Below are positions 40,279 to 60,453 of a stretch of 64,000 bases of DNA, piece after piece. The notes below the pieces were generated by a model, which worked only from the letters and a program-made list of their open reading frames with translations, was not told the origin of the DNA and searched no databases. A program made the position numbers and the translations under genes. The stretch is from Granulibacter bethesdensis (lineage in GTDB: Bacteria > Pseudomonadota > Alphaproteobacteria > Acetobacterales > Acetobacteraceae): positions 2,587,501 to 2,651,500 of the forward strand of contig NZ_CP018192.1 in the NCBI RefSeq assembly GCF_001889525.1, in the 5' to 3' direction. Each line of letters starts with the position of its first letter. The first letter of the stretch is position 1.

Positions 40279-41321
40279 CTAATGCACTCCCTGAAAAAGT
40301 GATCACGTGTGCAGGTAATCAGCATCGAACGTTTGTGCGGAAAATCGAACTCGTATTCCAGCTTGTAACCGGATTCCTCACAGAGACGCAGCATATTGCT
40401 ATGAGCGGCACTCGGTTCCCCAACGACCTTTCGTGTTCGGCAATCATCCAAAAACAGGCAATGCGTGATCGCACGGAACCATGCCAGCGTACGGTCGCGA
40501 CCAAGATGGCGTTTTTCTCCAACCAGCACATGCCAGCCACGATCATAATCATCGGCATCGTAATGCGGGCCGAGCCTGTCTTCCTTACCCCAATAGATCT
40601 CGAAATAGGTCGATGGCTCACCATCCAGTTCACCGATCACGGAGAATGCATGCGGATCAGCATCCATACGACGCAGATAGGCTTCATGCTTTTCAATCGG
40701 GCCGGCTTCATCCCAGAATTTTGCCACACGCGGCTGGTTCTGCCACATATGGAACAGTTCGAGATCACGGCCGATATCCAGTGCACGCAAGGTTAATTCA
40801 TGCCCGGTTATGGCATCACGCCGTCGATAGAACACACCTTTCGGAGCAGGCGGACGTAACGGATGATCACGCCCATCCGCGAGCGCACGACGCAGAAGCG
40901 GCTGACGATGCGCAGGTGGACCGGCCTGCCAGAAATCCCGGTGCTGACGATGCCCCTGCCGGTACAGCAAAGCTGTGTTATCCCGTATCTCATGCACCGG
41001 GAATGATGCATCGGCAGGATCAGAAACCGATTCAAGAGAAACTGAAAAACAATCAGCCCCTTCTGAAAAAGCATAATCAGCCAGGACATAGATCAGAAAA
41101 TTTCTGTCCCTTTCCGGCATAGACCAATGCAGGCCGATGGCCTTGGCCATTTCCTCCTCAAAATGAAGGTGCGTATGAGCGACGACAGATCCATTAAGCA
41201 GTATGCTCAGTTCGCCTCCTCCCATGATCATGACAGAGCGGCCATGTGCATCCCGGAATGTCCAGACCGGGGCCATATCCTTAACCGGTAGCGCGACCGG
41301 ATGCTCCAGAACACCACTCAT
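40275..41321 (-). CDS. iucB: N6-hydroxylysine O-acetyltransferase, IucB-like
   Basis: 348 residues, slightly longer than E. coli IucB (about 315). It acetylates N6-hydroxylysine with acetyl-CoA to give the hydroxamate donor. The C-terminal GNAT-type domain shows WQNQPRVAKFWDEAG, STYFEIYWGKEDRLGPHYDADDYDRG and RTRKVVGEPSAAHSNMLRLCEESGYKLEYEFDFPHKR. It starts at ATG 41321, overlapping the iucA stop by 4 nt, and ends overlapping iucC. An unknown N-terminal domain of about 150 residues has no clear motif. Confidence 0.88.
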   Translation of the reverse strand: MSGVLEHPVALPVKDMAPVWTFRDAHGRSVMIMGGGELSILLNGSVVAHTHLHFEEEMAKAIGLHWSMPERDRNFLIYVLADYAFSEGADCFSVSLESVSDPADASFPVHEIRDNTALLYRQGHRQHRDFWQAGPPAHRQPLLRRALADGRDHPLRPPAPKGVFYRRRDAITGHELTLRALDIGRDLELFHMWQNQPRVAKFWDEAGPIEKHEAYLRRMDADPHAFSVIGELDGEPSTYFEIYWGKEDRLGPHYDADDYDRGWHVLVGEKRHLGRDRTLAWFRAITHCLFLDDCRTRKVVGEPSAAHSNMLRLCEESGYKLEYEFDFPHKRSMLITCTRDHFFRECIR

Positions 41322-43162
41322 GACTGCACCAGCGGATTTGGAACGGATACATAACTGGCAAGAGGGCTGGCAGTATCTGCGTTTTCGTTGACATCCCTCA
41401 GGTATGTCATCACATTGCCTTTCATCCAGATCGACGGACAATCCAGCAGGTAGCGAATCACAGATGGATCACGCAGCCCATCATCGCTCATGGATTGAAG
41501 TCTTTGCCGTAAAATGCGTAGAAGTGCCTGTTCCTGTGCGACTCTATCGAGCACAAGTGTATCAAGAACGCCGAATACGGAATTACCGATCAGATAATAC
41601 CCGATCAGTTGCGGCCCCAATGCGGCATCGATGATATTATCTGTCCATCGTCCCAACTCTGGAACGTAAGTTCGTAGAGTCTCGATCATATCGGTTGCAA
41701 TGGCCGTGCCCTGGCAATCACGGAACCAGGCCTGTTCGGGCCAGCCATTCCGCAGACCAAGCACGACATTCTGCTGATGGGCACTCATCATCACACCATG
41801 ACGGGCATGGAGATACAGTACCGGCTCCATCAGAATAGCGAGGAAACGGCGAAACCATTCCTCCGCAACATCGGACTGGCTGCGTTTATCGCGTGTAGCG
41901 ATCATGCGGATGATATGGCCCAGTCTGCTGGGAGCATTTCTGTCGAACAGATCATCCTGACAAAGCGTCGCAAGCATCGCAACATGACGACCACCTGCAT
42001 GTACGCCCTTTGCTTTATCGGCGAAAGGATTATCCCTGAATACAACGGAACTTTCGACCATAACCTTCCCATCAAGCCCTCTCAGGGACAAATGAGCTGG
42101 TTCTTCGATCACTGAAAAACCCTGATAGCGGGTAAAGACATCCCGACCGACCGGGCCACGCAACAGACGCGCCAGATGCAGGCCGCGATCAAGCTCACGC
42201 GGCAAAATTGTACGAATCGAATTGGTAATCCGCATCGATAGCGAGAACTTTATCATTAATGGAGACTGCGCACTCCATAGACTGCGCAGGGATGCAGTTG
42301 CACGGAATTGTGGCCCCATGACACCCAGATCGCGCAGCCGATCCTCCATGCGCAGACTGGCAAGTTCGGGCAGGCACAAAAGTTGACCGGCTTGCCAGGG
42401 ATGAACCGGTAACAAGGTCCAGCCTTCCGGGACGGCATGCAGTGCTTCCTGACCGGCATCGGTCGATGCAAGCATCTCTTTCAGCAGTGACTGTATGTCG
42501 GCCACGTGAACACTGTCGCCAATTACGTGATCCGGATGGACTGCGAACCAACGTAACGCGAAGCTGTTGCCATGATCAGGCCCATACGCCGCATCTTCAC
42601 TTTCAGAGAGGCCTTCACGGAATTTGGGTGCGGGATGAAACGGATGACCCAGGATCAACCCCTGTTCCGCCGTGATAAAATCAGGCATACTGTCTGCCTG
42701 ATCATGTGTTCTATATTGATGACTGAGCAAGGCGGCTGAGACACGTTCGGCGCTGTCCATCACGCGCTTTCGGAAAGTCATCCTGGTCGGCAGGGATGCC
42801 GTCTGTGCAAAGGCCGTGTGATCCAGGAGAAGATCCAGCAGCAAACGCATATCCACCGATCGGATGGCACCATGACGCCTCAGCAAAGGCGGCCCCGCAA
42901 ATCTGAAACGCCCGGTTTCAGTGGACGCGGCAAGCGGCAGCAGCAACTCCCCTTCCTGCAACAGCAGGGGAACTGAAATCGCACCTGCCGGACAATGCAC
43001 ATATGCACCACATCGTGATGCAGCTTCCTGCGGATCGAGCTTTTTCCAGCCGCGCCATTCACGCAGCACACCGTTCAGCAATGTCGTCGTTGCCATTCCG
43101 GCCTCAAAGGAACGACGTTCAATGCATGCTGACGTATCGCGGGTTTCCATGGCTTCCAGCAC
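41318..43162 (-). CDS. iucA: NIS siderophore synthetase, IucA-like
   Basis: About 614 residues. IucA joins citrate to the first N6-acetyl-N6-hydroxylysine. Typical IucA/IucC blocks are LLPVHPWQAGQLLCLPEL, KFSLSMRITNSIRTI, VMMSAHQQNVVLGLRNGWP and RDCQGTAIATDM. The frame opens at GTG 43210. GTG 43162 is chosen because AAAGGG sits 8 nt upstream; ATG 43150 or 43096 are alternatives. Its promoter region holds a Fur-like site shared with the divergent exporter. It is the first gene of the iucABCD unit; no iutA receptor follows. Confidence 0.9.
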   Translation of the reverse strand: MLEAMETRDTSACIERRSFEAGMATTTLLNGVLREWRGWKKLDPQEAASRCGAYVHCPAGAISVPLLLQEGELLLPLAASTETGRFRFAGPPLLRRHGAIRSVDMRLLLDLLLDHTAFAQTASLPTRMTFRKRVMDSAERVSAALLSHQYRTHDQADSMPDFITAEQGLILGHPFHPAPKFREGLSESEDAAYGPDHGNSFALRWFAVHPDHVIGDSVHVADIQSLLKEMLASTDAGQEALHAVPEGWTLLPVHPWQAGQLLCLPELASLRMEDRLRDLGVMGPQFRATASLRSLWSAQSPLMIKFSLSMRITNSIRTILPRELDRGLHLARLLRGPVGRDVFTRYQGFSVIEEPAHLSLRGLDGKVMVESSVVFRDNPFADKAKGVHAGGRHVAMLATLCQDDLFDRNAPSRLGHIIRMIATRDKRSQSDVAEEWFRRFLAILMEPVLYLHARHGVMMSAHQQNVVLGLRNGWPEQAWFRDCQGTAIATDMIETLRTYVPELGRWTDNIIDAALGPQLIGYYLIGNSVFGVLDTLVLDRVAQEQALLRILRQRLQSMSDDGLRDPSVIRYLLDCPSIWMKGNVMTYLRDVNENADTASPLASYVSVPNPLVQS

Positions 43163-43223
43163 AGGCGTTTCCCTTTCTGTTGCATATCGTGCCGCTTTGC
43201 GGAGAATCACCTTGCGGCATATT

Positions 43224-43256: not shown

Positions 43257-44540
43257 ATGCAACCCCGGAACCCCTCCCTCTCTGCGGGCATCAGCCCTGC
43301 TGATCCAACATCACCCGATGTTATCACTTTGTCGTGCGCAGATCGTTTCGGCTTTGCTTCGCTTGTCTGCTGTGTAGGGCTGACACAATCATCACTGATT
43401 GCATTTTTGCCGATTTTATCGATCAAAACAGGATTATCTGTTCTGTCACTTGGTATTGTTACCAGTTGTGGAATGCTGGCCATGCTTGGTGGTGCGCCTC
43501 TGGCGGGATGGCTGAGCGATCGGGCAGGTCGACGACAGACTTTGATGGCCTGCCTTGCCATTTTCTGCGTAGCCCAGCTTTTTCTGGCGGCCATTGTATC
43601 GGCTGCGATGAACGGGACTTTATCCCCTTCGCTCTGTCTCGGACTGTTGATGATATGCCGCCTGTTACATGGCATCGCGACAGGCGGCCTGCTTCCAGTG
43701 GCACAGGCATGGGTCGCCGATCTGACCGGAATTCAAGGTCGTATGGCTGGGCTTGCAGCCATCAGTGCCGGGTTCAGTGCCGGTCGGCTGGCGGGTCCGC
43801 TGCTGGTCTCGGCCACTTTACCGCTGGGGGCTACAATGCCGCTCTGGGTCATGGCGCTGCTGCCCCTGCCGCTCGGCAGCATCCTGTTACGCCGCCCGCC
43901 CCCGGAAAGCTGTCATAGGAACATCCGGCCCCGATCAGGGGCTGCATGCTGGCGCAATCCGGCGATTCTGCGGTTGCTGATATTGGCCGCCATCGTCAAC
44001 ATTGCTTTTGGTGCCTTGCATTTCGTGCTTGGCCCCTTGTTCCAGCAAAGGCTGGGCTGGACCGCACAGATGGCAGGAATCAGGCTGGGCTGGATCACCG
44101 CCCTGATGGCAGCCCTGATGCTGGCAAACCAGATGAGCATCATTCCGCGGCTGACCGCATGGCCACGGCACACTCTGGCGGTCGGCATAGCCGTGATCTG
44201 GCTATCCGCACTCTGTCTGACCTGCGGGCAGGGCATGTGGAGTCTTGGGGCCGGTGTCTGTCTGCTCGGGCAAGGGCTGGCCTTATCGGGTCCGGCCTGC
44301 ACGGCCCTGGTCAGCATTGCTGCCGGAGGAAGACAGGGGGCCGCCTCCGGGCTGTTATCCTCCGTTCTGACGCTGGGGTATGCTGCGGGAGCCACGTTGG
44401 GCGGTTTTCTGTTCACCTGGGGGGATGCATGGCCCGCTATGACCGCACTGGTGATCCTGCCGCTGATCCTGCCGTTTTTCCCGCTTCCGGAATCATGGAC
44501 AAAGCGGTCCGATGATCGGCAGATAGCAGGCGATGCGTAA
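43257..44540 (+). CDS. MFS transporter, probable aerobactin exporter
   Basis: 427 residues with about 12 membrane segments. The MFS signature between TM2 and TM3 is GWLSDRAGRRQTL. The divergent position, one shared promoter and overlap with fhuF argue that it exports the siderophore (as IucE/YceE-type transporters do). ATG 43257 has no clear ribosome site and may be leaderless. Other drug substrates cannot be excluded by sequence. Confidence 0.82.
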   Translation: MQPRNPSLSAGISPADPTSPDVITLSCADRFGFASLVCCVGLTQSSLIAFLPILSIKTGLSVLSLGIVTSCGMLAMLGGAPLAGWLSDRAGRRQTLMACLAIFCVAQLFLAAIVSAAMNGTLSPSLCLGLLMICRLLHGIATGGLLPVAQAWVADLTGIQGRMAGLAAISAGFSAGRLAGPLLVSATLPLGATMPLWVMALLPLPLGSILLRRPPPESCHRNIRPRSGAACWRNPAILRLLILAAIVNIAFGALHFVLGPLFQQRLGWTAQMAGIRLGWITALMAALMLANQMSIIPRLTAWPRHTLAVGIAVIWLSALCLTCGQGMWSLGAGVCLLGQGLALSGPACTALVSIAAGGRQGAASGLLSSVLTLGYAAGATLGGFLFTWGDAWPAMTALVILPLILPFFPLPESWTKRSDDRQIAGDA

Positions 44541-45291
44541 AGACGAAGACATAGCGGCATGGTGCGAGGCGCGTATGGCCTCTCCCGCCGGGTTTTCTCC
44601 GGCGGATGACATGGACGTCTCCCTCCTGACAAGGCGGGAGACACTGGCCCCCGGGATAGAGCGATTCGCCAAAACCCTGCCGGCAGGCGCCGATCCACGC
44701 GCCATCGGATCACTCTGGAGCAAGGCCTATACGCGGGCCGTGTTGCCGCCGCTGTTTATTCTGGCTATTCGGGACGGACGCAACGCTCTTAATCCCGCAC
44801 AGACCGTGCCACCCGGACTGGTTCTTCTTAAGGATCGCCCGGATCAACTGGCACTGGATGCAGCCACCCTGCCACGTCAAACGCCTGAGCAGATCATGAC
44901 CATCGCGCTGGGGCAGCATATGCAAAGCGTATTCACCGCGTTGCGGGACTGCACCGGCCTTTCTCCGCGCGTGGCATGGTCCAATGCGGGCAACATGGCT
45001 GATTTCCTGTTCCGACGCATGGCCGAAACGCCATCATTGGCCGATCAGGCCGCACAGTATGAGGCCCTGATCATGGAGCCACGCCAGACCCCGTGGTTTC
45101 CACGCCAGAACTGGCTGCATGCACCGTTGCGAACCGTTTCTGTCCTGCTGGACGGAGAAGCGATTCCGTTGCGCCAGCGCCGGATATGCTGTCTGAGAGA
45201 CAAGGTGCCGGGCATGACACTTTGCTCTACCTGCCCCAGATTATCGGAGGAAGAGCGCCGCGCGCTGGTCGGTCAACGGCACCGCCATTGA
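44533..45291 (+). CDS. FhuF-like ferric siderophore reductase
   Basis: 252 residues. The C-terminal motif ICCLRDKVPGMTLCSTCP (CCX10CX2C) is the [2Fe-2S] site of FhuF-type ferric-siderophore reductases, which release iron from hydroxamates in the cytosol. The N-terminal half is weakly conserved, as usual. Start ATG 44533 overlaps the exporter stop by 8 nt, so the two are coupled. It completes an export-reduce pair with the iuc biosynthesis genes. Confidence 0.9.
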   Translation: MRKDEDIAAWCEARMASPAGFSPADDMDVSLLTRRETLAPGIERFAKTLPAGADPRAIGSLWSKAYTRAVLPPLFILAIRDGRNALNPAQTVPPGLVLLKDRPDQLALDAATLPRQTPEQIMTIALGQHMQSVFTALRDCTGLSPRVAWSNAGNMADFLFRRMAETPSLADQAAQYEALIMEPRQTPWFPRQNWLHAPLRTVSVLLDGEAIPLRQRRICCLRDKVPGMTLCSTCPRLSEEERRALVGQRHRH

Positions 45292-45709: not shown

Positions 45710-47800
45710 ATGGCCATTCTGCCCATCCTGCTCTGCGCCGCCACCTGCCTGGGACTGGCGGGGGAATGGCTGATGGCCGCACCGCCGCGGCAGGATCGGC
45801 GGATTCTGCCCGCACGGCTGAGGCGGCTGGTATTGTACCATATCGTGCTGTGTGCCGTGGGGGGTCTATCCTGCCTGTCTGTTCTGCTCGGGGGCGCGTC
45901 ATGGAATGGAACAGCATGGGTTGGCGGTTCCCTGCCCGCGCTGGTATCGGATGCCATTGCCCTGCGTCTGGGGCTGGACGGATTTTCCGCCTTTACGGCG
46001 CTAGCCGGATTTTGTGCGCTCGGGCTGGCCAGCACCACCGGGCTGGATCGACCCGGAGAAGGAGCCACGCGGTTGGCCTTTGTAACAGCCGCGTTGATGC
46101 TGACCGTCATGGCGGCCGATGTCATGACACTGGCAGGGGGCATCGCTTTGCTTTTAGTCGCCCTGTGGGCCTGCCCCACCCATGATGGGGCGTCCCCCGG
46201 CACGGAAACGAACACGTCCAGCCCGGCCCATACCGTGCCCCATTCGGGGAATGCGGCTGCCATTGTGGGAATTCCGCTGCTGATCATCTCTACGGTCATG
46301 CTGATGCAGCACGCCTCTCCCGCAGGTGGGGGTCCGGTACAGGCCGTCGGGTCAGCCCGGCCTCTGGTCTGGATTGCCTTGTTACTGCTGACCATCGTCG
46401 TTCTGACGACGATGGTTGCCCTGCGCACGCCCTCCTCCGAGCGATCCCGGATCGTGACGGAGGAGCACCCTTCGGGGTTGGAACCGACCGCCCCGGATCT
46501 TGCTGCCATCACCCCTGCTCTGCCAGTCCAGCGCAGCCCTGCCCCCGCCCTCGCCACTCCGGCGCAGATCGTCCGGCCCGCCTTGCAGGTGATTGTGCCG
46601 GTTTACCTGCTCGGGCGGCTGGGACTCGACTTCCTGCGTGAAGCGGCGGGACCGGGAGAAAGCACTCCGCTGATGCTGGCGGGAGCGATTCTGGCCTTGG
46701 CCGGCGGAATCAGCACTTTGCGGGGACACAGCATTGGCAGCTGCGTGAACGGAATGGCAGACAGCCAGACCGGCCTTGCGATTCTGGGATGCGGGCTGGC
46801 CGTAGCCGCCATGGCGGTTGATCTGCCCGATCTTGCCAGCCTTGCCCTGGCTTCCGTCCTGATCATCGTCCTGTCAGCCGCCCTGCTGATGCCAGTGCTG
46901 GGGACCGGTGCCACACTGATCGAGGAAGGGGCCGGCACCACCATGCTGGACCGGCTTGGCGGCACCATCATCGGGATGCCACGCATCGCTTTACTGACCG
47001 GCGGAGCCTGCCTGGCCAGCGCAATGCTGCCGCCTTCCCCGCTTTATGCCGGACGCTGGATGCTGGTTCAGGCCCTGATCGGCGGCCAGAGAATTCAGGA
47101 TGCCGGTCTGGATGCCCTGCTGACGCTCGGACTGGTCGCCACGGCGCTGGCCTCGGCATTGGGGATGGTGGCGGTACTGCGCCTGCTCTGCATCGCCATT
47201 CTCGGCCGCCCCCGTGCGCCACGGGCCGCCGCCAGCACGGAGCCGCGGCGCCCCGCCGGCCTACGGGCCATGCAGGCAGGGCTTGCGGCCTGTGTCGTGG
47301 CAGGGCTGATCCCCGGCCCTGTCCTGCGCCTTCTGCACGGGTCGCTGATTGCGCTGTGCGGTCATACCATGGATGATCGGGCTGGCTGGATCGGTATCAG
47401 CGCACAAGTCGACAGCATGCTCAGCTACACCCCGCTGTGGATCGCGCTGGCGCTGATCTCCGGCACCGCCCTGCTGCTGCGCTTCCTGCACGGGCGGCGC
47501 AGCACGACCCGGAACGCCGTGCCATGGAATGATGGCGATGCGCCGCCGCCGCCCTGGCTGCCCTTCGGCGATCCGGCCACCCAGCCTGACCCTGATTCGG
47601 TGGCCGATACTTTTCTGGCCCCGCTGCCGCCTCTGAAACCCACCCCTCCGGCCCTGTCCGGCCTGTCGTCACGGCTGCAGATGATGCTGACAGCCATGCT
47701 GGGCCGGGCAGAACGTTTCATACCGGCCGGCGCCTCTGCCGGGCTGCTGGCAGTGCTCTGTCTGCTGCTGGCCATGGCCGCTCTGGAGGCACGGCCATGA
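45710..47800 (+). CDS. hyfB: HyfB-like antiporter subunit of an atypical complex-I-related operon
   Basis: 696 residues with about 16 hydrophobic segments. The frame ending LDRLGGTIIGMPRIALLTGGACLASAMLPPSPLYAGRWMLVQALI aligns with the NuoL/M-type HyfB block (DRLGGL...PPLNGFVSEWLLLQAL). By eye the membrane Glu of WELM (here GGIALL) and the pump lysines (HALFKG, LKRLLAY) are missing. A Pro/Thr-rich soluble stretch (about 155-175) is unusual. AAGGGG precedes ATG 45710. First gene of six. Confidence 0.8.
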   Translation: MAILPILLCAATCLGLAGEWLMAAPPRQDRRILPARLRRLVLYHIVLCAVGGLSCLSVLLGGASWNGTAWVGGSLPALVSDAIALRLGLDGFSAFTALAGFCALGLASTTGLDRPGEGATRLAFVTAALMLTVMAADVMTLAGGIALLLVALWACPTHDGASPGTETNTSSPAHTVPHSGNAAAIVGIPLLIISTVMLMQHASPAGGGPVQAVGSARPLVWIALLLLTIVVLTTMVALRTPSSERSRIVTEEHPSGLEPTAPDLAAITPALPVQRSPAPALATPAQIVRPALQVIVPVYLLGRLGLDFLREAAGPGESTPLMLAGAILALAGGISTLRGHSIGSCVNGMADSQTGLAILGCGLAVAAMAVDLPDLASLALASVLIIVLSAALLMPVLGTGATLIEEGAGTTMLDRLGGTIIGMPRIALLTGGACLASAMLPPSPLYAGRWMLVQALIGGQRIQDAGLDALLTLGLVATALASALGMVAVLRLLCIAILGRPRAPRAAASTEPRRPAGLRAMQAGLAACVVAGLIPGPVLRLLHGSLIALCGHTMDDRAGWIGISAQVDSMLSYTPLWIALALISGTALLLRFLHGRRSTTRNAVPWNDGDAPPPPWLPFGDPATQPDPDSVADTFLAPLPPLKPTPPALSGLSSRLQMMLTAMLGRAERFIPAGASAGLLAVLCLLLAMAALEARP

Positions 47801-48756
47801 CGGGAAACATCTCGGGAAACATCTCGGCCAGCTTCTTTTCCCCCGCACTGCATATCGTGCTGCATATCGTGCTGCTGGCCCTGCTGGCGCCGCTGGTGTC
47901 CGGGATCATCACCAGCATCCGCATCCGGGCCAATGGGGGCGGCAGTGGGGGCGGCTGGCTGTCCCCCGCCGCGCCTTACACATGGCTCCGGGCGACGATG
48001 AAACACGGCATTGTCATTCCCGCACAGGCAACCAGCCTGTTCATGGTCCTGCCATGCGTCTCCCTGGTTGCAACCGCGCTGGCCGCCTTCCTGACGCCTT
48101 CCTTTCTGATCGACGGCCCTGTGACCGGAGAAGGCGACGCCATCCTCATCCTGGGCCTGCTGTCACTGTCCCTGATCGCCAGAATCATGGGGAGCATGGA
48201 TACGGGGCTGAGCCAGAACAGTATCGGCACGCTGCGACAGGGCGGAGAGGTTCTGTGGATGGAGTTGATTGTAACCCTCAGCCTCTCCGCCCTGACGATG
48301 CTGGGCGGAAACCCGGTCCTGACAGCCCTGCATACGACCGGGATGATCTCCGGTGGCACCTTGCTGATCTCATTGCTGCTGCCAGGCCTGTGCCTTGCCG
48401 CGCTGGCCGGAGCAGGGATGTTGCGCACGCCATCAGAAGACATGCCGCATCTCTCCGGCCCGCTGCTGGCCATGGCTTCTTATGAACGGTCCCTGCGTCT
48501 GTTGACCTGGATCAGCGTCATGGCGATCGTTTTTCTGCCTTTTGACATGATCTCCCTTCAGGCCGGCCTCCTGCACTGGGGCTTCGCCATTCTGACATGG
48601 GGCGGCAAAATCCTGTTTCTGGCCGCTCTGCTGGGTCTGGCGCAGGCGCTGCTGCCTTTTCCGGCGGCCGGACGGGGAGCTGCGTTCCTGCTGCTGGGCA
48701 GCGTCTTTACCCTTCTGGCCGTCCTGTGCCTGCTGGCGGGACAATATCCGGCATGA
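47797..48756 (+). CDS. hyfC: HyfC-like (NuoH-related) membrane subunit
   Basis: 319 residues with about eight membrane segments. The loop MDTGLSQNSIGTLRQ replaces the LDTGSAFGGMGASRE quinone/proton loop of NuoH/HyfC. The SGPLLAMASYERSLRLL segment corresponds to the conserved EYSGPLLALLEYARWLKLL. Overlaps the upstream gene by 4 nt (ATGA). In complex I and group-4 hydrogenases this subunit joins the membrane arm to the hydrophilic arm. Confidence 0.85.
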   Translation: MTGNISGNISASFFSPALHIVLHIVLLALLAPLVSGIITSIRIRANGGGSGGGWLSPAAPYTWLRATMKHGIVIPAQATSLFMVLPCVSLVATALAAFLTPSFLIDGPVTGEGDAILILGLLSLSLIARIMGSMDTGLSQNSIGTLRQGGEVLWMELIVTLSLSALTMLGGNPVLTALHTTGMISGGTLLISLLLPGLCLAALAGAGMLRTPSEDMPHLSGPLLAMASYERSLRLLTWISVMAIVFLPFDMISLQAGLLHWGFAILTWGGKILFLAALLGLAQALLPFPAAGRGAAFLLLGSVFTLLAVLCLLAGQYPA

Positions 48757-49454
48757 CCATCACACCCGGCACCATTTTCATCCCGCTTCTGGCGATGATC
48801 CTGCTCTCCGCTATGATCGCCGCGCTCTGCACCCGGCTTCGGGCCGCGCGACAGGCGGTATTGGCTCAAGCCTTGCTGGTAACAATCGTGGCCGCGGCAA
48901 ATGCCTCGTTAACGGCTTTCTGTCTGCCTGATCGCCCGGCCTGGCCCATGGCCGGAGTTGCTCTCACGGTGCTGCTGGCAGGGTTGTTTCTGGGGCATAG
49001 ATGGCGGAGCAGGCCGCTCGCCTTGTCATCAGAACCGGATCTCAAGACTGATCAGCCAACCCTGCCCGATACAGTCTGGATGATGGGAACCGGCCTGATT
49101 ATCGCCTTGGTCGTCTCCGGCGGCATCGGATTGACGCCTGTTGTCTCTCACGCTCCGGTATCCGCCGCGACGCTACCCATAGTCGCGCCCGATCCCGCAA
49201 CGGTGATCGCCATCAGCCTGACGATGGGGATGCTGTCTCTGCTATGGCTGGCCCGTGATAGCAGGGTTGGTTTCCTCGGCCCGGCACTGCTTCAGGCCGG
49301 GCTGGCAATCGCACTGGTCATGAGTGCGCTGGATACTCACCGGCTGATACCGCTCTACACCCTGCTGGGTCTGCTGCCCGCTTTGCTGACGGAAGAAGCC
49401 TTCCGCCTTCTGCGCCAGCGGGAAGCAAGGGCTGAGACGGAGGCTGCACCATGA
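48753..49454 (+). CDS. hyfE: HyfE-like (NuoK-related) membrane subunit
   Basis: 233 residues, about seven membrane segments (LLAMILLSAMIAALCTRL at the start, LTMGMLSLLWLARDSRVG later). HyfE is a NuoK-like protein with extra helices. The C-terminal LGLLPALLTEEAFRLLRQRE tail matches HyfE. The ATG at 48753 overlaps the hyfC-like stop by 4 nt. Charged residues inside its predicted helices are few. Confidence 0.75.
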   Translation: MTITPGTIFIPLLAMILLSAMIAALCTRLRAARQAVLAQALLVTIVAAANASLTAFCLPDRPAWPMAGVALTVLLAGLFLGHRWRSRPLALSSEPDLKTDQPTLPDTVWMMGTGLIIALVVSGGIGLTPVVSHAPVSAATLPIVAPDPATVIAISLTMGMLSLLWLARDSRVGFLGPALLQAGLAIALVMSALDTHRLIPLYTLLGLLPALLTEEAFRLLRQREARAETEAAP

Positions 49455-50860
49455 CGGATCACGCCCCCGATTGGCTTTCCCTTCTGACCGATCCGGCATG
49501 GTGGCCTTGGCTGCTGCCACTGCCGTCGCTGTTGACCGCCGCACTGAGCATGGCGCTGTCCGGCTGGCAGGGAGCAGCCTGGGCCGGTCTGGTATCCGCC
49601 TTTCTGACGCTGGGGCTGGCAGCTGGGGGGATGGCCGCTGGGGGGATGGCAGAGGCTTCATCGACCACCATGGCATCTGATCCGGCCGCGGGAGGAGCGT
49701 TGCTCACGGCCCTGATCAGCGTGATGGCCGCCACATCCTGGCTTGGCTGGTGCGCGGATGAAGTCGCTGCCATGCGTATCTCCCTCGCCCGATTGAAAAT
49801 CCTGGCAGTCGGGCAGCAAACCGCATTGGCGGGAATTCTGCTGGCCTTTGCCCCCTCTCCATGGGCAGGCTGGGCCGGGATCAGCATCGCCATAGCCGTG
49901 CTGACTGTTTTGACCGCTTTATTCGGCTCTGCATTCCCCTCTTCGGCCCTATCCCGACGGAAAGAGACGCTGACAGTCGGGATCATGGCCTGTCTGCTGT
50001 CCCTGTTCGGCCTGATCATCCTTCAGGCGTCCTCCGCCGGCCTCCCTTTTTCCGGACAGGGGCACGGTCTGGTCCCCACCATGCCAGGCCTGATCTGCCT
50101 TGCCGCCGGGCTGGCCGTTCCTGCAGGCCTCGCCCCGGTGCATCAATGGCTGCGAGAGACCGTCAGCGCCCTGCCACCGCCGGGACAAGCGCTGATCACC
50201 GGCGGGCTGCCTGCTGCCGCCCTGCTGTTCATGCTGAAACAAGCCGGCGCGGGCATGCCGCCTTTTATCTATGGCACGCTGGGGATTCTCTCCGTGCTGG
50301 CCGGTGCGGTGCTGGCGATCCGCTCCAGCGTCACCCTTTCATGGCGCTGGAGCGGACCACTCTCCTGTCTCGGCGGCGGCTGTCTGGCGGGGGGGAGTCA
50401 TGGTCTGCTCTATCCGGCGCTCGGGCTGCCGGCCCTGTGTGCCTGTCTGCTGCTCGACGGGCGAGCACGGCAGATCGGCGCTGTCTCCGATCATACGCCC
50501 TCTCCGCCGGGGCATGGCGGGTTGGATGCATTGCGACTCGCGGCCCGTTTCAGTCTGGCCGGACTACCGGGGGGCACTCTCGCGGGACTGGTCGCCCTGC
50601 TGTCCGGGACTGCCCTGACGCATCCTCTTCTGGCCCTGCTGCTGGCGGCCGGGCTTGGAAGCAATGGCTATGCACTGCTCCGTCAGGCTCCGATGCTGCG
50701 ACCCGCCCGAAGACCACCAACCCCCTCACGCGCCTGTCTGCCGCTTGATATGACCGCAACCCTGCCCGCCGTGATCCTGCTGCTGACCGGCATCCTGCTG
50801 GGGCTTGGCAATGGGCCATCCCGCTGGTTCACCTCTGCCATCGCTGCGGTGACGCAATGA
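49451..50860 (+). CDS. hyfF: HyfF-like (NuoN/M-related) antiporter subunit
   Basis: 469 residues, about 12-14 membrane segments. The conserved motif KAGxxPFHxWLPDA is here PAGLAPVHQWLRE, so the key TM7 Lys is Pro. The following VMLKVGLY block is GGLPAAALLFML, also without Lys, and the DLKRVLAYS block is SSVTLSWRWSG. Thus the ion-pump lysines appear absent. Overlaps both neighbours by 4 nt (ATGA). Confidence 0.8.
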   Translation: MTDHAPDWLSLLTDPAWWPWLLPLPSLLTAALSMALSGWQGAAWAGLVSAFLTLGLAAGGMAAGGMAEASSTTMASDPAAGGALLTALISVMAATSWLGWCADEVAAMRISLARLKILAVGQQTALAGILLAFAPSPWAGWAGISIAIAVLTVLTALFGSAFPSSALSRRKETLTVGIMACLLSLFGLIILQASSAGLPFSGQGHGLVPTMPGLICLAAGLAVPAGLAPVHQWLRETVSALPPPGQALITGGLPAAALLFMLKQAGAGMPPFIYGTLGILSVLAGAVLAIRSSVTLSWRWSGPLSCLGGGCLAGGSHGLLYPALGLPALCACLLLDGRARQIGAVSDHTPSPPGHGGLDALRLAARFSLAGLPGGTLAGLVALLSGTALTHPLLALLLAAGLGSNGYALLRQAPMLRPARRPPTPSRACLPLDMTATLPAVILLLTGILLGLGNGPSRWFTSAIAAVTQ

Positions 50861-52410
50861 GTCTGGACTCCCTGTTGCAGGGTGCCGACACCGAGGCAAC
50901 CCACCACGATGCCGCCACGCATGCCGTGGCACGGAGGCTTCTGACCGCCTCGCTCTGGCAGGAGCTGGCAGCCAGCACCCAGGCCGGGTTGCTGGCGCTC
51001 TGGGCCGACCAGGCGCGCTGCCATGCCTTGTATCGCACCGCGCATGGCATTCTGCCGGTGGCAATCCCGATCGAAGGGGGGCGCTTCCCCGCGCTTTCCC
51101 CCTTCCGTCCAGCCGCCGCATGGCAGGAGCGGGCCATCCGCGATTTATGGGGCTATGAGGCCGAGCACGGCGTGGATAGCCGCCCATGGCTCGATCACGG
51201 CAGATGGCCGATGAGTGCCCCGCTTTCCGCCCGGCCCGGACCGCCTTTGCCACCGCCCGAGCAGGCGGAGTGGCGGATGGCCTCGCCCTTCGCCTCCTCC
51301 TTTGTCTCGTCCCGGCCCGATAGCACGCTGCACGAGCGCAGTATTGGGCCTGTTCATCCATTGATGCGGGAGCCGGCACAGTTGCGCCTGCACCTGCATG
51401 GCACCCTCATCCGGCAGGCGGAATGGCGGCTCGGCTATACTCATCGCGGGATCCCGTGGCTGATGCGCGGGAAATCCCTGCGGGACGCGATACGGATCGC
51501 GTCCCGGATCACCGGAGATGCAGCGCTTGCCCACGGTCTGGCCTTCGCCCGTGCTGCTGAGGCCGCCTTGCGGCTGGAGCCGCCTCCCCGCGCCCTGCTG
51601 CTGCGTGGCCTGATGAATGAGCTGGAACGCTGTGCCGTCCATCTGCATGTCCTCGCCGCCACAGCCAGCGCCGCCGGAACCGACACTTATGCCGCGAAGC
51701 TGTCCGCATGGCGGGAACGTCTGTTGCGCGCCATTCAGGATGCCCTTGGCAGCCGCATGATGATCGACCTGCTTATTCCTGGCGGGGTGCTGACCGATCT
51801 TCTGGACGGCACCGCGTTGGAAACAGCCTTGCAGGCCCTCGCCCGGACCATGCCGGAGCTGATCGAAGGCTATGAAACGGCTGCCAGCCTGAGTGGACAT
51901 GGACTTTGCGCCTGTCTCCGTGGATGCGCTGTCCTGTCCGAGTCGGATGCTGTTTCTCTGGCCGTGCCCGGCCCCGCCGGACGCGCATCGGGTCGTCCCC
52001 ATGATCTGCGCACCACCTGGCAGCAGGCTCCGCATGGTACGGTGCACAGGCTGGTGCTGGCAAATGGCGACGCGGATGCCAGAATGCGGGTCCGTCTGGC
52101 GGAAATTCAGGAGAGCCTACGGCTGGCACTGCTGTTCCTGGAGTCCCTGCCGGTCGGACCGATTGCCAATCCCATGCCGATCGGTACAGGCAATGCCAGC
52201 GGAGAGGGGTATGGCGGGGTGGAATCGGCCCGTGGCGCATGCTGGCACTGGCTGCGCATCGAAGGCGGAATGGTGGTCTCCGCCCATGCGGCCGATCCGT
52301 CATGGCGGCTGATTCCCGCTATTGAGGCCGCTCTGCCCGGCACCGACATTGATCTGCTGGGGGTGGCGCTGGCCTCTTTCGCGCTCTCGCCCGCCGGGGC
52401 TGATCTGTGA
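50857..52410 (+). CDS. hyfG: HyfG-like (NuoCD-related) large subunit lacking [NiFe] cysteines
   Basis: 517 residues. The N-terminal NuoC-like part has RDLWGYEAEHGVDSRPWLDHGRWP. The NuoD-like part shows LGYTHRGIPWLMRGKSLRDA. In catalytic [NiFe] large subunits CGxC follows; here it is T219-G220-D221-A222. The C-terminal DPCxxC is replaced by ASFALSPAGADL (residues 506-517). All four metal-ligand cysteines are therefore lost. GEGYGGVESARGACWHWLRIEGG is conserved. Not a hydrogenase. Confidence 0.9.
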   Translation: MSLDSLLQGADTEATHHDAATHAVARRLLTASLWQELAASTQAGLLALWADQARCHALYRTAHGILPVAIPIEGGRFPALSPFRPAAAWQERAIRDLWGYEAEHGVDSRPWLDHGRWPMSAPLSARPGPPLPPPEQAEWRMASPFASSFVSSRPDSTLHERSIGPVHPLMREPAQLRLHLHGTLIRQAEWRLGYTHRGIPWLMRGKSLRDAIRIASRITGDAALAHGLAFARAAEAALRLEPPPRALLLRGLMNELERCAVHLHVLAATASAAGTDTYAAKLSAWRERLLRAIQDALGSRMMIDLLIPGGVLTDLLDGTALETALQALARTMPELIEGYETAASLSGHGLCACLRGCAVLSESDAVSLAVPGPAGRASGRPHDLRTTWQQAPHGTVHRLVLANGDADARMRVRLAEIQESLRLALLFLESLPVGPIANPMPIGTGNASGEGYGGVESARGACWHWLRIEGGMVVSAHAADPSWRLIPAIEAALPGTDIDLLGVALASFALSPAGADL

Positions 52411-52417
52411 GGCGCTC

Positions 52418-52942
52418 ATGAGATGGTTTCCGTCCCTTCGTGCTTCCCATCCAGGGCTGTGGGAGGATGCCGCCAGCCTGCCGCATACGGAAACCGTCGC
52501 CGCGCTGATAGCCCGCCGCAGAAGCAGCGCAAGGCCAAGGCTGGGACAGGCCCTGTCCATCCTGCACGCAGAGAGCGGCGGCGGCGGCGCCTGCCTGCTT
52601 GAATTGGAGGCATTGCGCGCCGCGCCCGGCCTGCTGGCTCGTCATGGATTACGGTTTGTCGGCTCGCCGCTGCATGCCGATATCCTGCTGATCACCGGCT
52701 ATGGCTGTCGCAACCTGACGAGCGCCATCCATCAGGCATGGGAGGTGATGCCAGGCCCGCGATGGGCCATCGCCGTCGGTGACGGAGCCGCAGGGGATGG
52801 TCTGCTGCACGGAAGCTATGCCAGCACCGGCAGTATGGAAGAGATCCCTCTTGATCTGGTCATTCCAGGCAGTCCACCTGCAGCGGATACAATCCTGTCC
52901 GGCCTGCGCGCCCTGGTCGCAGCGAATGCTGATCCGGTCTAG
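52418..52942 (+). CDS. hyfI: HyfI-like (NuoB-related) small subunit lacking most [4Fe-4S] ligands
   Basis: 174 residues. Homology to HyfI/NuoB is clear from FVGSPLHADILLITGYGCRNLT, AIAVGDGAAGDGLLHGSY and PLDLVIPGSPP. The four cluster ligands should be C-x-x-C, GDC and GCPP; the sequence has G56...C59, G123 (GDG) and S152 (GSPP), so three of four are missing. C97 (GYGC) is an extra Cys. Starts 7 nt after the large-subunit stop. Last gene of the operon. Confidence 0.9.
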   Translation: MRWFPSLRASHPGLWEDAASLPHTETVAALIARRRSSARPRLGQALSILHAESGGGGACLLELEALRAAPGLLARHGLRFVGSPLHADILLITGYGCRNLTSAIHQAWEVMPGPRWAIAVGDGAAGDGLLHGSYASTGSMEEIPLDLVIPGSPPAADTILSGLRALVAANADPV

Positions 52943-54201: not shown

Positions 54202-54261
54202 ATGCCAATCAAGAAAATGAGGCCGGATTTTGACAAGCAAGATCGTAGCCAGGCGGGTTGA
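54202..54261 (+). CDS. Possible 19-codon leader ORF overlapping the glycosyltransferase start
   Basis: ATG 54202 has the strongest ribosome site of the region (GGAGGG, 54191-54196). It encodes MPIKKMRPDFDKQDRSQAG and stops at 54261. It overlaps the TTG start of the 990-aa gene (54230) in another frame. Either a coupling leader, or a sign that the real start is here with a frame change. Confidence 0.35.
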   Translation: MPIKKMRPDFDKQDRSQAG

Positions 54262-57202
54262 AACCGGCCTCAATATTACGTTTAAGCCTTTTATGCTCTC
54301 CACAATGCCGGAATTCGCTTCCGTCGTGCTGGATCAGATACTGACCGCCACCATCCCCCTCAAGCCCGGCAAAGGCGGCACTCTCATCGCCGATATTGCT
54401 CTGCCGGATTCCCAGATTCTTCAGACGCTTGAACTGCTGGATCCCGCCTCCGGACGGTCTCTGTTCGATGCCCCTTATTCCCTGGCAGATTTCTACAGCC
54501 TTGAAGCTGAAGAACCTACTGTGAGCGACGGGCGGCTGACCGGGCGCTTTTCCGCCAGCGCCTTTCTGGCAGACCGGCTTCTGGTCGATCTGACCACTGA
54601 AAACGATACGATCGTCGCACGTGGTTTCGCCATACGGCAGAAAAAAACCGCCCGCATCGCCCATTATACGTTCGACATCCCCCTCTCCCTGATGTGCCGG
54701 CCGGATGAAAAAATCATCACCATCATCCGTATTGCCGGAGCCGTCATTCATGCCCCGGTGACTATCACCGCACGGGATATCGGATGGCTCGGTTTCGTGG
54801 ATCTGGTGCAGACTGGTCTGATATCCGGCTGGGCCATTGATCTGACCGGGGCCGGTCGCCGGGTAGCACTGGATCTGATCGTCAATAACGAGGTCATGTC
54901 GCAGATTATCGCAGATGATTTCCGACCTGATCTGCAACAGACCGGAATCAGTGATGGGCATTCCGCCTTTTCATTCAGCCTGACGGCAAAACCGGGATTC
55001 AAAGGTCCCTCTCCGGCACGCGTCGTCGTCTCCGGAACGGAAATGACCCTGATCAATGGATCATTCCAGGCCACGCCACCTTCCAGTATTCGCGGCTGTT
55101 TCGACATTCTGCATGGCATGTCCGCCCATGGTTGGGCCGTTGATCTGGATAATCCGAAAAAACCGGTCAAGGTGGAAGCCGTCTGCAACGGCAATATCAT
55201 CGGCACCGCGGAAGCCAAACTGTTTCGTGGCGATCTGCTGGACGCCGGCTATAATAATGGCCTCTGCGCGTTCAAAATCGATATTGGTGCACAGCTGCTC
55301 GACCTTCTCGGACAGGACGTGCTGGTGCGTATTGCCGGAACGGATCAATACCTGATCGGATCACCACGGGTCGCACAACAGAACAAGCATATTCTGCGTT
55401 ATCTTCAGCCACATCGGGATGTTCCGCCTGCTGTCCTGCCGCGTCTGAAACGGATGATGAATTATCGGGCCGGTGCAGTGCGTCTTTCAATCGTCATGCC
55501 GGTGTATAATACACCACAGGATTGGCTGATCGAGGCCCTGAACAGCGTCCGCGCTCAATGGTGCGACAATTGGGAACTGCTGTGCATCAACGATGCCTCT
55601 TCCGAGCCGCATGTCGAAACTATCCTGCATGCCTATGCACAGCAGGATCCCCGCATTCGTATCCTGCGCACGGGTAACAATGTCGGCATTGCACGGGCCA
55701 CGAATTTCGGCCTGCGTGCCGCATCCGGACAATACGTCACCTTCATGGATCATGACGATTATCTGGAGCCTGATGCCGTCTATCATCTGCTGAAAGCAGC
55801 CGGAGAAACACGGGCTGATTTCATCTATTCTGATGAAGCCACCACGGATGAAAACATTGCCAGCATTGCCGAAGTACGTGGTAGGCCTGCTTTCTCCCAT
55901 GACTATTATCTGTCCCACCCCTATATCGTGCATATGCTCTGCCTGAAACGCGAGGTGGCCCACCAGCTGGGCGGGTGGGATGAAAGCATGGCGATTTCAG
56001 CGGATGTGGATTTCGTCCTGCGAATCATCGAACATGCCCGCACCATCGCCCATGTTCCACGGGTGTTGTATCGCTGGCGTACCCATAGCGGCAGCACCGG
56101 CCATTCCAAGAAACAGCAGGTTATGGAGGCCACGCAGAAAGCCATTCAGGCGCATCTTGATCGCCTGAAAACCGGTGCGACGGTCGAGGAAGGGGTATGG
56201 TTCAATCAGTTCCGCATCAACTGGCCGAAAAGTAAGGGCAGGGTACTGATCGTTATCCCGACCAAGAACAAGGCCGATCTGGTCCAAACCGCGGTCGAGT
56301 CCATCGAGCGAACCACCCCGCCTGATGTGGATTACCGCATCGTCGTGGTTGATCATGAATCCACCGAACCGGAAAGCCAGAAATATTTCCGTGCCCTGGC
56401 CAAACGGCATATCGTGATGCCGTATCAAGGCCCGTTCAACTATTCGAAAATCAATAATGAAGCCGTGAAAAAGCACGGGGATGATTGTGAATTCGTCCTG
56501 TTCCTGAACAACGATGTCGAAGCCATCACGGATAACTGGATCGACCGTATGCGCAGCCTTGCCAATCGTCAGGAGGTCGGTGCTGTCGGCGCATTGCTGC
56601 TGTATCCCGACAAGCGTGTGCAGCATGCGGGTGTAATCATGGGATTCAATGAATCCGCCGATCATGCCTTCAAGTTTGTCGATGCCTATCTGAATGACAA
56701 GGGGCGTCGCAATCTCGGCTATAATTGCAGCCTGAGTTCAGTACGAGATTATTCTGCTGTTACCGCGGCCTGTCTGATGATGCGGAAATCCGTATTCGAT
56801 CAACTGGGTGGTTTCGAGCCCAGATTCGGCGTTGGATTCAACGATACCGATCTTTGCTTGCGGGTCCGGGAAGCCAATCTGAAAGTGCTGTATGATGGCG
56901 CCACGGTTTTGTTCCATTATGAAAGCGCCACGCGCAGCCAGACCAAGCAGGTGATGCATCCGGAAGACACCGATTATCTGCTGCAACGTCATGCTGCGAT
57001 CCTGAAAAACGGTGATCCTTTCTATAACCCCAATCTTAGCTATGTGACGCAGGATCACGTTTTGCGTGAAGACGATGGCTGCAAATATTTCAGTGTTCGG
57101 GTCACGGAAAAGCCGGTTCCCGAAACCACGTCTCCTGTAATCTCATCGCCGAAACCGGTCAGAAAACAGAAGCGGCAACAACCACTGGCCATACCAGCCT
57201 GA
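54230..57202 (+). CDS. Large bimodular family-2 glycosyltransferase with GWAxD domains
   Basis: 990 residues. Residues about 180-400 hold two copies of a beta-rich unit with the GWAxD motif (LISGWAIDLTGA, SAHGWAVDLDNP). Then a first GT2 domain: SIVMPVYNTPQDWL, LLCINDASSE, FMDHDDYLEPDA (DxD-like). Then a second: LIVIPTKNKADLV, VVVDHESTEPES, FLNNDVEAITDNW, followed by VGFNDTDLCLRVREA. Likely builds surface polysaccharide. Start is TTG 54230 preceded by GAGG; ATG 54293 is the first ATG in frame. Rich in Lys at the C-terminus. Confidence 0.85.
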   Translation: MTSKIVARRVETGLNITFKPFMLSTMPEFASVVLDQILTATIPLKPGKGGTLIADIALPDSQILQTLELLDPASGRSLFDAPYSLADFYSLEAEEPTVSDGRLTGRFSASAFLADRLLVDLTTENDTIVARGFAIRQKKTARIAHYTFDIPLSLMCRPDEKIITIIRIAGAVIHAPVTITARDIGWLGFVDLVQTGLISGWAIDLTGAGRRVALDLIVNNEVMSQIIADDFRPDLQQTGISDGHSAFSFSLTAKPGFKGPSPARVVVSGTEMTLINGSFQATPPSSIRGCFDILHGMSAHGWAVDLDNPKKPVKVEAVCNGNIIGTAEAKLFRGDLLDAGYNNGLCAFKIDIGAQLLDLLGQDVLVRIAGTDQYLIGSPRVAQQNKHILRYLQPHRDVPPAVLPRLKRMMNYRAGAVRLSIVMPVYNTPQDWLIEALNSVRAQWCDNWELLCINDASSEPHVETILHAYAQQDPRIRILRTGNNVGIARATNFGLRAASGQYVTFMDHDDYLEPDAVYHLLKAAGETRADFIYSDEATTDENIASIAEVRGRPAFSHDYYLSHPYIVHMLCLKREVAHQLGGWDESMAISADVDFVLRIIEHARTIAHVPRVLYRWRTHSGSTGHSKKQQVMEATQKAIQAHLDRLKTGATVEEGVWFNQFRINWPKSKGRVLIVIPTKNKADLVQTAVESIERTTPPDVDYRIVVVDHESTEPESQKYFRALAKRHIVMPYQGPFNYSKINNEAVKKHGDDCEFVLFLNNDVEAITDNWIDRMRSLANRQEVGAVGALLLYPDKRVQHAGVIMGFNESADHAFKFVDAYLNDKGRRNLGYNCSLSSVRDYSAVTAACLMMRKSVFDQLGGFEPRFGVGFNDTDLCLRVREANLKVLYDGATVLFHYESATRSQTKQVMHPEDTDYLLQRHAAILKNGDPFYNPNLSYVTQDHVLREDDGCKYFSVRVTEKPVPETTSPVISSPKPVRKQKRQQPLAIPA

Positions 57203-57284: not shown

Positions 57285-57701
57285 TTATTCGTCGAGATCC
57301 CGCTTAACCTCTGGACGGCGAAGCAGGGAATCCACATGCATCGCGTACTCAAGAGCCGAGTCTGGCTGGAAATGCAACTCTGGCGCATAACGCAGCCGCA
57401 TCACCTTGGCCACTTCTCCACGCAAATAGGTCGCAACACGCTTCAGATTAGGCAGAAGCGGTTCGATCTCACTGCTGCCCAGACGGGAGATGAACACGGT
57501 GGCATGTTTCAAATCCGGGCTGATCCGCACTTCATTGATTGTAAAAGTGGTCGTGGCTAATTCCGGGTCCCGGAATTCCTGGCGTGCGAACACCCCGGCC
57601 AGCACGTGGCGGATTTCTTCCGCTACACGCAGCTGACGCTGGGATGGCGCACCTTTCGGTATACCGGCAGGCCCGGAGGAGGAGGGCGGACGGCTGCTCA
57701 A
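57285..57701 (-). CDS. rbfA: Ribosome-binding factor A
   Basis: 138 residues. RbfA matures the 16S 5' end and is needed in the cold. Blocks are [44 protein letters not shown] and [27 protein letters not shown]. It begins at TTG 57701, overlapping the infB stop by 4 nt (TTGA). In most relatives truB follows directly; here a terminator and a converging glycosyltransferase gene follow. Confidence 0.95.
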
Positions 57702-60445
57702 GCGGGAACAAGCTCCGTCTCATAGCATTCAACGACATCGCCTTCCTTGATGTCATTGTAGCCTGCAAAGGACAGACCGCATTCGTAATTGCGGGCCACT
57801 TCCTTCACATCATCCTTGAAGCGCTTCAACTGGCTCAATTCACCCGTGTGAATGACAACGTTGTCACGCAGCAGACGCACGCCACAGCCACGCTTCACCA
57901 CACCTTCGGTCACCATACAGCCAGCGACCTTGCCGACCTTGGTAATTTCGAAAACCTTGCGGATCTCGGCATAGCCCAAGAATTTCTCGCGCTGTTTCGG
58001 CGCGATTTTGCCGCGTACCAGCGCCTCGATATCATCCGCCACTTCATAAATGATGGAGTAGTAACGGATATCGACGCCCTCGCGCTGGGCAAGCTCACGC
58101 GCCTGATTGGTTGCACGCACATTGAAGGCGATCAGCACGGCATTGGAAGCCTTGGCCAGCTGCACATCGCTTTCGCTGATCTGGCCGACCGAGGAAAGCA
58201 GGGTGCGGACCTTGACCTCTTCGTGCTCCTGCTTCTGCACGGTGGAGGCAATTGCCTCCGCGCTGCCCTGCACATCGGCCTTGATGACAACAGCAACTTC
58301 TTTCTGCGCACCAGCCTGAATGCGGCTGAGCATCTGTTCCAGCGTGCCACGACCAGCGGCAATACCGGCGGCCATTTTCTCGCGGATTTTGCGCTGACGG
58401 AACTCACTGATTTCCCGCGCCCGGCTTTCGTTTTCCACCGCAACGAAAGGCTCGCCCGCCGACGGAACCCCGGCGAGACCGAGAATCTCGACCGGTGTCG
58501 AAGGCAGGGCTTCTTTCATCTGCTGGCCCTTATCGTCCAGCATGGCACGCACGCGGCCCCATTCCGCCCCGGCGACGACAATGTCGCCCTGACGCAACGT
58601 GCCTTTCTGTACCAGCACGGTGGCCACCGGACCGCGTCCACGATCCAGACGGCTTTCCACCACGGTGCCTTCAGCGGCCCGATCCGGATTGGCTTTCAGA
58701 TCCAGCACTTCCGCCTGAAGCAGAATGGCCTCTTCCAGCTTGTCCAGATTCTGGCGCTTCAGGGCCGAAACCTCGACATCCTGTGTATCGCCGCCCATAT
58801 CCTCGACCACGATTTCGTGGTGGAGCAGTTCCTGACGGACGCGGCCCGGATTAGCACCCGGTTTGTCGCACTTGTTGATGGCGACAATGATGGGCGCGTT
58901 CGCGGCCTTGGCATGTTTGATGGCCTCGATCGTCTGTGGCATCACGCCGTCATCCGCCGCCACCACCAGCACGACGATATCCGTCACCGATGCACCACGA
59001 GAGCGCATGGCCGTGAAGGCTTCATGGCCGGGCGTATCCAGGAAGGTCAGCTTCTGCCGGGAGGGCAGAGTCACCTGATACGCACCGATATGCTGGGTGA
59101 TACCGCCCGCTTCGCCCGCCGCCACATCGGTGGCACGCAGCGCATCGAGCAGCGAGGTCTTGCCATGATCGACATGCCCCATGACCGTGACCACAGGTGG
59201 CCGCGGCTGAAGATCGGAGTCGATATCGCTGATCCCTTCCAGACCGACTTCCACATCGCTTTCGCTGACGCGACGGACGCGATGACCGAATTCCTGAACG
59301 ACCAGTTCGGCGGTATCGGCGTCGATGGTCTGGGTCACAGTGGCCATCATGCCCATGCGCATCAGCTGCTTGATCACATCGGCAGCCCGCACGGCCATAC
59401 GGTTGGCAAGCTCACCCACCGCAATGGTTTCCGGCAGCACGACATCGCGCACCACTTTCAGCTGATCAGCGCGCAGACGCTCCAGTTCCGCCTGACGGCG
59501 TTCACGGTCACGCTGACGACGCATAGAGGCGATGGAACGCGTGCGCTCATCCTCCCCCTCGATCGCAGCACGCACATCGATGCGGCCACCACGACGCGGC
59601 TCAGCAACGGCTTTTTTCGCAACCGGAGCGGCCGCTTTGCGCGGTGCAGGTGCACCGCCACCGCCTGCACGGCGCGGCTTGCGTTCTTCCTCACCCTCAT
59701 CCCCACGTTCCCGCAGACGCAGCGTCTGCGGAGCGGACGGTGCTGCAACAGGAACCTTGGAGGGAATCGGCGCGGGGCGGGAGGGACGACGAATATCGTC
59801 CGACGGTGCTGTGCGAGAGGGGGCAGACCGCGAAGAAGGGGCAGCCGTACGCTCACGCTGGGCCGGAGGAGGCACAGGAGGAGCCTCGGCCGGCGGCGCG
59901 GATTCAGCGGCCTTACGGGCCGCTTCTGCGGCAATCCGGTCGGCCTCTTCCTGTTCCTTGCGACGTTCCTCTTCTTCAGCGGCGCGTTTGGCTTCTTCCT
60001 CGCGGCGGCGTGCTTCCTCGGCAGCAGAGAGGATCGAGATCTTCTCCTGCTCGCGGCGCTCCACCTCACGGCGCGCGGCCTCGATACGTTGCTGTTCCAG
60101 CACGCGCTGGCGAATAGCCAGTTCCTGCGCCGTCAGAGCGCGGCCTGCGCCCCCGGCACCACCACGACCGGAGCCGCGATTACCACCACCGCTGCGTGGC
60201 GTACCCTGTGGGGCATTACCACTCTGTGGGGCGGGTGCGCTGCTGCTGCCGCCTTCCGGGGCCGAAGGGGTGCCGGGCTGCAATCCGCGCTTCTTGCGGA
60301 CCTCAACCTGCACAACCTTCGAACGTCCGTGGCTGAAGCTTTGCCGCACGGATCCGGCATCCACGGTACGGCCCAGCTCCATCCGGCCAGCTGGCCGAAG
60401 CGACAGCCGGCCCTTGCCCGCGTCCTGATCGTTGCCTTCGCTCAT
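57698..60445 (-). CDS. infB: Translation initiation factor IF-2
   Basis: 915 residues. The N-terminus has an IF2-N-like stretch ([16 protein letters not shown]), then a long Ala/Arg/Glu-rich coiled coil (about 100-170) and Pro-rich linker. The GTPase G1 is [19 protein letters not shown] (about residue 420), G3 DTPGHEAF, G4 [11 protein letters not shown]. Domains II-IV are complete. AAGG precedes ATG 60445. Confidence 0.97.
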
Positions 60446-60453
60446 CTAACGCC

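Follow-up and report, generated by a model that had tools for sequence, protein, structure and literature searches.

We analyzed a 64,000-nucleotide stretch (the window) of contig NZ_CP018192.1 of Granulibacter bethesdensis, an Acetobacteraceae member whose genome is one 2.69 Mb contig. Positions 45710-52942 of the window carry six plus-strand genes in the order B-C-E-F-G-I, lettered here after the hydrogenase-4 (Hyf) subunits to which they were assigned. These encode a HyfB/antiporter-like membrane subunit (B, 45710-47800, 696 aa), a HyfC/NuoH-like membrane subunit (C, 47797-48756, 319 aa), a presumed HyfE-like membrane subunit (E, 48753-49454, 233 aa), a HyfF/antiporter-like membrane subunit (F, 49451-50860, 469 aa), a HyfG/NuoCD-like large subunit (G, 50857-52410, 517 aa), and a HyfI/NuoB-like small subunit (I, 52418-52942, 174 aa). 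The initial annotation had described six intact genes at this position. Indeed, all six frames are open, B through G are joined by four 4-base overlaps, and a 7-base gap separates G from I. The operon itself has no NADH module, and a separate complex I is encoded in the genome.

The homology to Hyf subunits proposed in the initial annotation was clear for G, I, and the second half of B, and less so for the others. G and I are related to their families beyond chance (Pfam 1e-22 and 2e-12, respectively, the latter with a query carrying six additional N-terminal residues), and their closest solved structures are formate hydrogenlyase subunit 5 (HycE, 1.8e-29) and subunit 7 (9.5e-18). B matched the NCBIfam HyfB model at 8e-31, a match that spans residues 296-609 only and lies under the model’s cut-off. 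C is a weak NuoH relative (Pfam NADHdh 6e-5, under the Pfam cut-off; 92 bits with its own profile), and F was identified by profile-profile comparison only (hhalign 98.4% full length; 96.9% with other settings). For E, which has six hydrophobic segments, a family search and a profile comparison gave no match, and its HyfE label reflects position, length, and hydropathy only. As a compositional observation, I contains no lysine and G just two.

Both soluble subunits have lost metal ligands, as the initial annotation had read from the sequence. In G, T219-G220-D221-A222 replaces the CGxC motif, and the C-terminal end, ASFALSPAGADL, is without DPCxxC; the six cysteines of G form no CxxC pair at the former [NiFe] site. 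The two motifs that mark the large subunit of a group 4 [NiFe] hydrogenase (Hyd-4) are thus missing. The maturation gene of such an enzyme, HypD (PF01924), was not found in the genome by a search whose control was positive in 4 of 14 control genomes. In I, alignment with 168 other rows placed G56, C59, G123, and S152 at the four [4Fe-4S] ligand positions. Sequence flanking the lost ligands is retained (GD-A, PG-PP). Cysteines elsewhere that might restore both metal sites had been named as the observation to look for against these losses; since C59 and C97 are the only cysteines in I, no alternative set within that chain can hold its cluster, and a hidden replacement site was ruled out. The possibility that another intact copy exists in the genome was likewise ruled out, because the only two PF01058 genes are NuoB and I of the operon.

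The two ligand losses differ sharply in their distribution. Searching 200 Acetobacteraceae genomes with I returned matches in 196, many of which are NuoB. The counts given here for this family refer to the loci fetched among the matches listed, a list that stops at weak matches, with one listed match (G099:C64) left out; after deduplication, they comprise 149 distinct small subunits of the energy-converting-hydrogenase-related (Ehr) type from 132 genomes. All four cysteines are kept in 144 of these. The combination Gly-Cys-Gly-Ser occurs in three, which are the three genomes of the window’s genus (G000, the window’s own, G100, and G157) and only these; of the two left over, one reads Ser-Cys-Cys-Cys (G001) and the other is truncated. 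All four cysteines are also found in each of the 80 loci of named genomes, and in 22 of the 23 loci that belong to alphaproteobacteria of other families, the remaining one being Cys-Cys-Cys-Ala (L295). Loss of small-subunit cluster ligands is therefore rare in the Acetobacteraceae, bearing out the earlier suspicion that it is unusual. The family as a whole is patchy in other alphaproteobacteria, with matches above 160 bits in 23 of 288 genomes besides the window’s.

Loss of the [NiFe] ligands and the absence of HyfA and HyfH had also been reported initially. Both are real; however, they are not a local event but the normal state of the B-C-E-F-G-I operon in Acetobacteraceae, rhizobia, and Azospirillum. 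The six-gene order is annotated as hydrogenase-4 subunits in Rhizobium and Bradyrhizobium, and five of the six genes are annotated in Azospirillum, where the E position is unannotated in an incomplete table. Among rows with a large-subunit hit, CGxC is present only in E. coli HyfG and in one hydrogenase-like locus (L169, counted within the 149), and HyfA/D/H/J-like genes are absent from the relatives’ operons too, indicating that both losses are old and shared. L169 (genome G113) belongs to a hydrogenase-4-like Acetobacteraceae operon and falls outside the Ehr-type set in the tree.

Four Ehr-type small subunit genes stand alone: L045 (G001), L067 (G187), L072 (G199), and L084 (G059). Their surroundings are unrelated, comprising a tRNA synthetase, an acyl-CoA dehydrogenase, ThiG with an ATP-binding cassette (ABC) protein, and a xanthine/uracil-type permease. 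In all four genomes whose I left the operon, an Ehr-type G is encoded elsewhere, which favors a shared function of the G-I pair in the family at large.

A third loss, in the membrane arm, had been missed by the initial annotation. The roles of a Glu-Lys pair, a central Lys, a lateral His/Lys, and a terminal Glu in antiporter-like subunits are set out in the available part of PMC11496545. In this analysis, we matched seven HyfB channel residues of pump-keeping relatives to Nqo13 positions by spacing: the Glu of transmembrane helix (TM) 5, the Lys of TM7, the Lys of TM8, a His-His-Lys set, and the Glu of TM12. The window’s B retains none of the seven, and the sister genomes of the genus retain 0 and 1; in the window’s B, every element of a proton-pumping arm named above is missing. 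Channel residues are also absent from F in a profile alignment, and the charged TM5-TM6 loop of C is mostly deleted, appearing as an alignment gap.

This loss is not confined to the window’s genus. In a deduplicated set of 219 rows, 159 were scorable for HyfB: 122 kept six or seven residues, 4 kept four, and 33 kept at most three. Among the 149 Acetobacteraceae loci, the pump residues are intact in 84, partial in 2, lost in 19, and not assessable in 44, and 16 of the 19 pumpless loci keep all four cysteine ligands. Misalignment as the source of the apparent loss was rejected on the basis of lysine counts, which use no aligned columns: B contains 0-3 lysines (median 1.5) in 32 pumpless rows vs. 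3-14 (median 6) in 122 intact ones, and the window’s B has a single Lys (643) in 696 residues. Pump-keeping and pumpless Ehr-type operons occur together in four genomes: L050/L142 (G083), L117/L123 (G047), L049/L133 (G127), and L099/L125 (G051).

To place these losses, we used two trees of G plus I. The larger one comprises alphaproteobacterial relatives and E. coli HyfG/I only, and the window’s set is positioned relative to these. In it, the window’s genus sits on a stem branch 1.38 changes per column long; the surrounding set has 31 rows, of which 26 are pumpless and 5 were not assessed. At least two pump-loss changes are required in the 84-row tree, unassessed rows being disregarded, and at least four in a 37-row tree, both built by a quick method and with several long-branched rows. 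A single origin of pump loss was rejected (approximately unbiased test, p 0.003; 23 pumpless vs. 14 intact rows), with the proviso that pumpless status was read off B, that the trees were built on G plus I, and that long branches may affect both. Since pump loss with the cluster kept recurs and has more than one origin, pumping is dispensable in this family.

We compared selection among three species of the window’s genus, represented by one genome each. Omega was 0.09-0.16 for G and 0.22-0.24 for B; C, E, F, and I gave 0.28-0.43, 0.25-0.39, 0.22-0.34, and 0.29-0.39, respectively. Six neighboring genes, one of them aligned over part of its length only, were at 0.06-0.23. G is thus the most constrained of the six genes and I the least constrained soluble subunit. 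Similarly, pN/pS was 0.10-0.45 across the six genes (0.10-0.17 for G), and neutrality was rejected in 12 of 12 gene-by-species tests (one-sided Fisher p <=0.0036); NuoD is far more constrained than the operon (pN/pS 0-0.009). Conserved ligand loss together with purifying selection had been proposed initially as the combination to check for, and both are present: the cluster-ligand loss is common to the three species, and all six genes are under purifying selection. Broken frames in sister strains, named as contrary evidence, were not seen in the three species: no frame decay was detected and no stop occurs in 2,408 codons of any of the three. Under simulated random substitution at 0.2 per site, the six genes acquired a mean of 27 stops, and none of 1000 runs was free of them.

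What has been kept is unevenly spread over the complex. Columns were taken as conserved if they were so in at least 95% of the relatives that keep the pump. G has 132 such columns, of which 87 are kept in the genus (38 of the 48 with a charged residue or His), and I has 56, of which 35 are kept. In C, the genus retains 32 of 87, including 7 of the 28 charged or His columns. For B, the count is 28 of 93, with 3 of 19 among charged or His columns; these figures are lower bounds owing to local misalignment, as approximately 11 of its 65 changed columns differ solely in the second or third species, where the alignment is off. The kept columns are concentrated in G and I and not in the membrane subunits, and the losses are therefore selective.

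Residue sets for cofactors and protons have been lost while selection keeps the genes intact, making a role other than electron transfer or pumping probable. We accordingly suggest, with a probability of roughly 0.45, that the operon specifies a complex of the Ehr type that is retained as a membrane scaffold or sensor with neither a redox nor a pumping function; a non-redox role had already been proposed in the initial annotation. A fuller version, which we advance more tentatively, is that of a “pseudo-complex I” that shed its [NiFe] site, proton path, and [4Fe-4S] cluster to become a cofactor-free scaffold or sensor, and that stands at the end of a stepwise series whose intermediates live on in related genera. 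The [NiFe] ligands would have been lost in an early ancestor, the proton-path residues of the membrane arm later, and the last cluster in the window’s genus only. The remaining assembled membrane complex would neither transfer electrons nor pump protons by known routes; the NuoD-like G, its most constrained part, may bind a partner, or else a small ligand, on the cytoplasmic side, with the membrane subunits as its anchor. The homology, the three losses, their distribution, and the purifying selection are computed results; production and assembly of the proteins, the absence of any further bound cofactor, and the placing of the function in G are inferred.

The main and serious rival, which we consider possible but somewhat improbable, is that the operon is a relic in slow decay under weak constraint. 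It would have drifted after the pump and then the cluster were lost, with residual selection against misfolding, aggregating, or membrane-poisoning variants keeping its frames open for a while. Several observations fit decay, and the first and last of them also weigh against a retained scaffold or sensor: E is unrecognizable by sequence in profile comparison, the omega values of C, E, F, and I are relaxed relative to the neighboring genes and NuoD, the stem branch is long, and sequence change in the operon far outpaces that in nuoD. The G/NuoD rate is 2.8x on paths from the genus to pump-keeping relatives, vs. 1.35 between such relatives, and approximately 14x within the genus, where NuoD hardly changes. 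To these must be added the order of constraint between the soluble subunits. In six pairs of relatives, taken in or next to pumpless lineages and including some members unscorable for the pump, I (omega 0.10-0.20) is more constrained than G (0.17-0.24), the reverse of the genus; for the pair L049/L117, the small-subunit row (702 codons, omega 1.15) was in the wrong frame and was left out, and G has an omega of 0.39. This reversal also fits the loss of the cluster’s job in the genus. Against decay, the constraint on G equals that of the neighboring genes, the stop-free frames in three species contrast with the approximately 27 stops expected at 0.2 per site, and pumpless operons persist across many genera.

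That the locus is simply an ordinary Ehr complex, and the observations a known property of that family and nothing more, seems unlikely. Missing [NiFe] ligands are what defines Ehr complexes, whose function is given as unknown in the available parts of PMC6349859 and PMC10284858, and hyfA, D, H, and J are absent from the relatives’ operons too; yet neither cluster loss (3 of 149 loci) nor pump loss (19 of 105 that could be assessed) is a family-wide property, and this explanation is already disfavored. A very unlikely alternative is that the complex is still redox-active by an unusual route, with C59 and non-Cys ligands holding a cluster, or with G pairing with the NuoB of complex I, and quinone being reduced without pumping; the pumpless relatives that keep the cluster might work in this way. 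C59 and the loops near the ligand sites are indeed retained, 16 pumpless relatives keep all four cysteines, and the genome encodes NuoB. However, Gly, Gly, and Ser stand at three of the four ligand positions, and these residues do not usually hold clusters. I is also the less constrained of the two soluble subunits, and C is missing most of the charged TM5-TM6 loop, whose counterpart in complex I faces the quinone site.

Textbooks present complex I and its relatives as redox-driven pumps. If the scaffold or sensor reading is correct, a member of this superfamily is under selection without redox centers or a proton path, and the scaffold would be useful in itself. The Acetobacteraceae series, in which pump and cluster are kept, the pump is lost and the cluster kept, or both are lost, offers natural variants in which the functions of membrane arm, cluster, and large subunit are separated, as well as a handle on what Ehr complexes do.

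The neighboring genes gave no clue to function. Directly upstream of the operon lie siderophore-type genes (38401-43210 on the minus strand, 43257-45291 on the plus strand), which include two IucA/IucC-FhuF proteins, an acetyltransferase, a major facilitator superfamily (MFS) transporter, and a FhuF-like ferric reductase. Positions 54230-57202 encode a 990-aa protein with two glycosyltransferase-2 stretches. A 957-aa open frame at 57584-60457 has no Pfam match at 0.001 and may not be a gene, because the opposite strand has a 915-aa frame that overlaps it.

Among known systems, a search limited to open-licence papers gave no account of Ehr or complex I relatives in which the cluster or the proton path is also missing. 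As in Ehr complexes, to the extent that the available parts of PMC6349859 and PMC10284858 define them, the large and small subunits are group-4-like, with G related to group 4 hydrogenases and NuoD, the [NiFe] CxxC ligands are absent, and antiporter-like membrane subunits (B, F, and, by position only, E) are encoded in the operon. In addition, the window’s complex lacks the proton-path residues and a small subunit fit for a [4Fe-4S] cluster, the latter being general in the relatives and assumed here to be a defining Ehr trait. The E. coli Hyf/Hyc systems share the B-C-E-F-G-I gene order and subunit homology but carry hyfA, D, H, and J, CGxC and DPCxxC, four small-subunit cysteines, and 7 of 7 HyfB channel residues. 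Pumpless Acetobacteraceae operons, such as those of Rhodopila, Acidisphaera, Caldovatus, and strain AT-5844, have likewise lost the HyfB channel residues and lysines and combine divergent C, E, and F with intact G and I; unlike the window’s operon, they keep all four cysteine ligands and a strongly constrained small subunit. With respiratory complex I (NuoB, NuoD, NuoH, NuoL/M/N), the operon shares a NuoB/NuoD-like pair on a NuoH- and antiporter-like base, whereas it has no NADH module, N2-type ligand set, or proton path.

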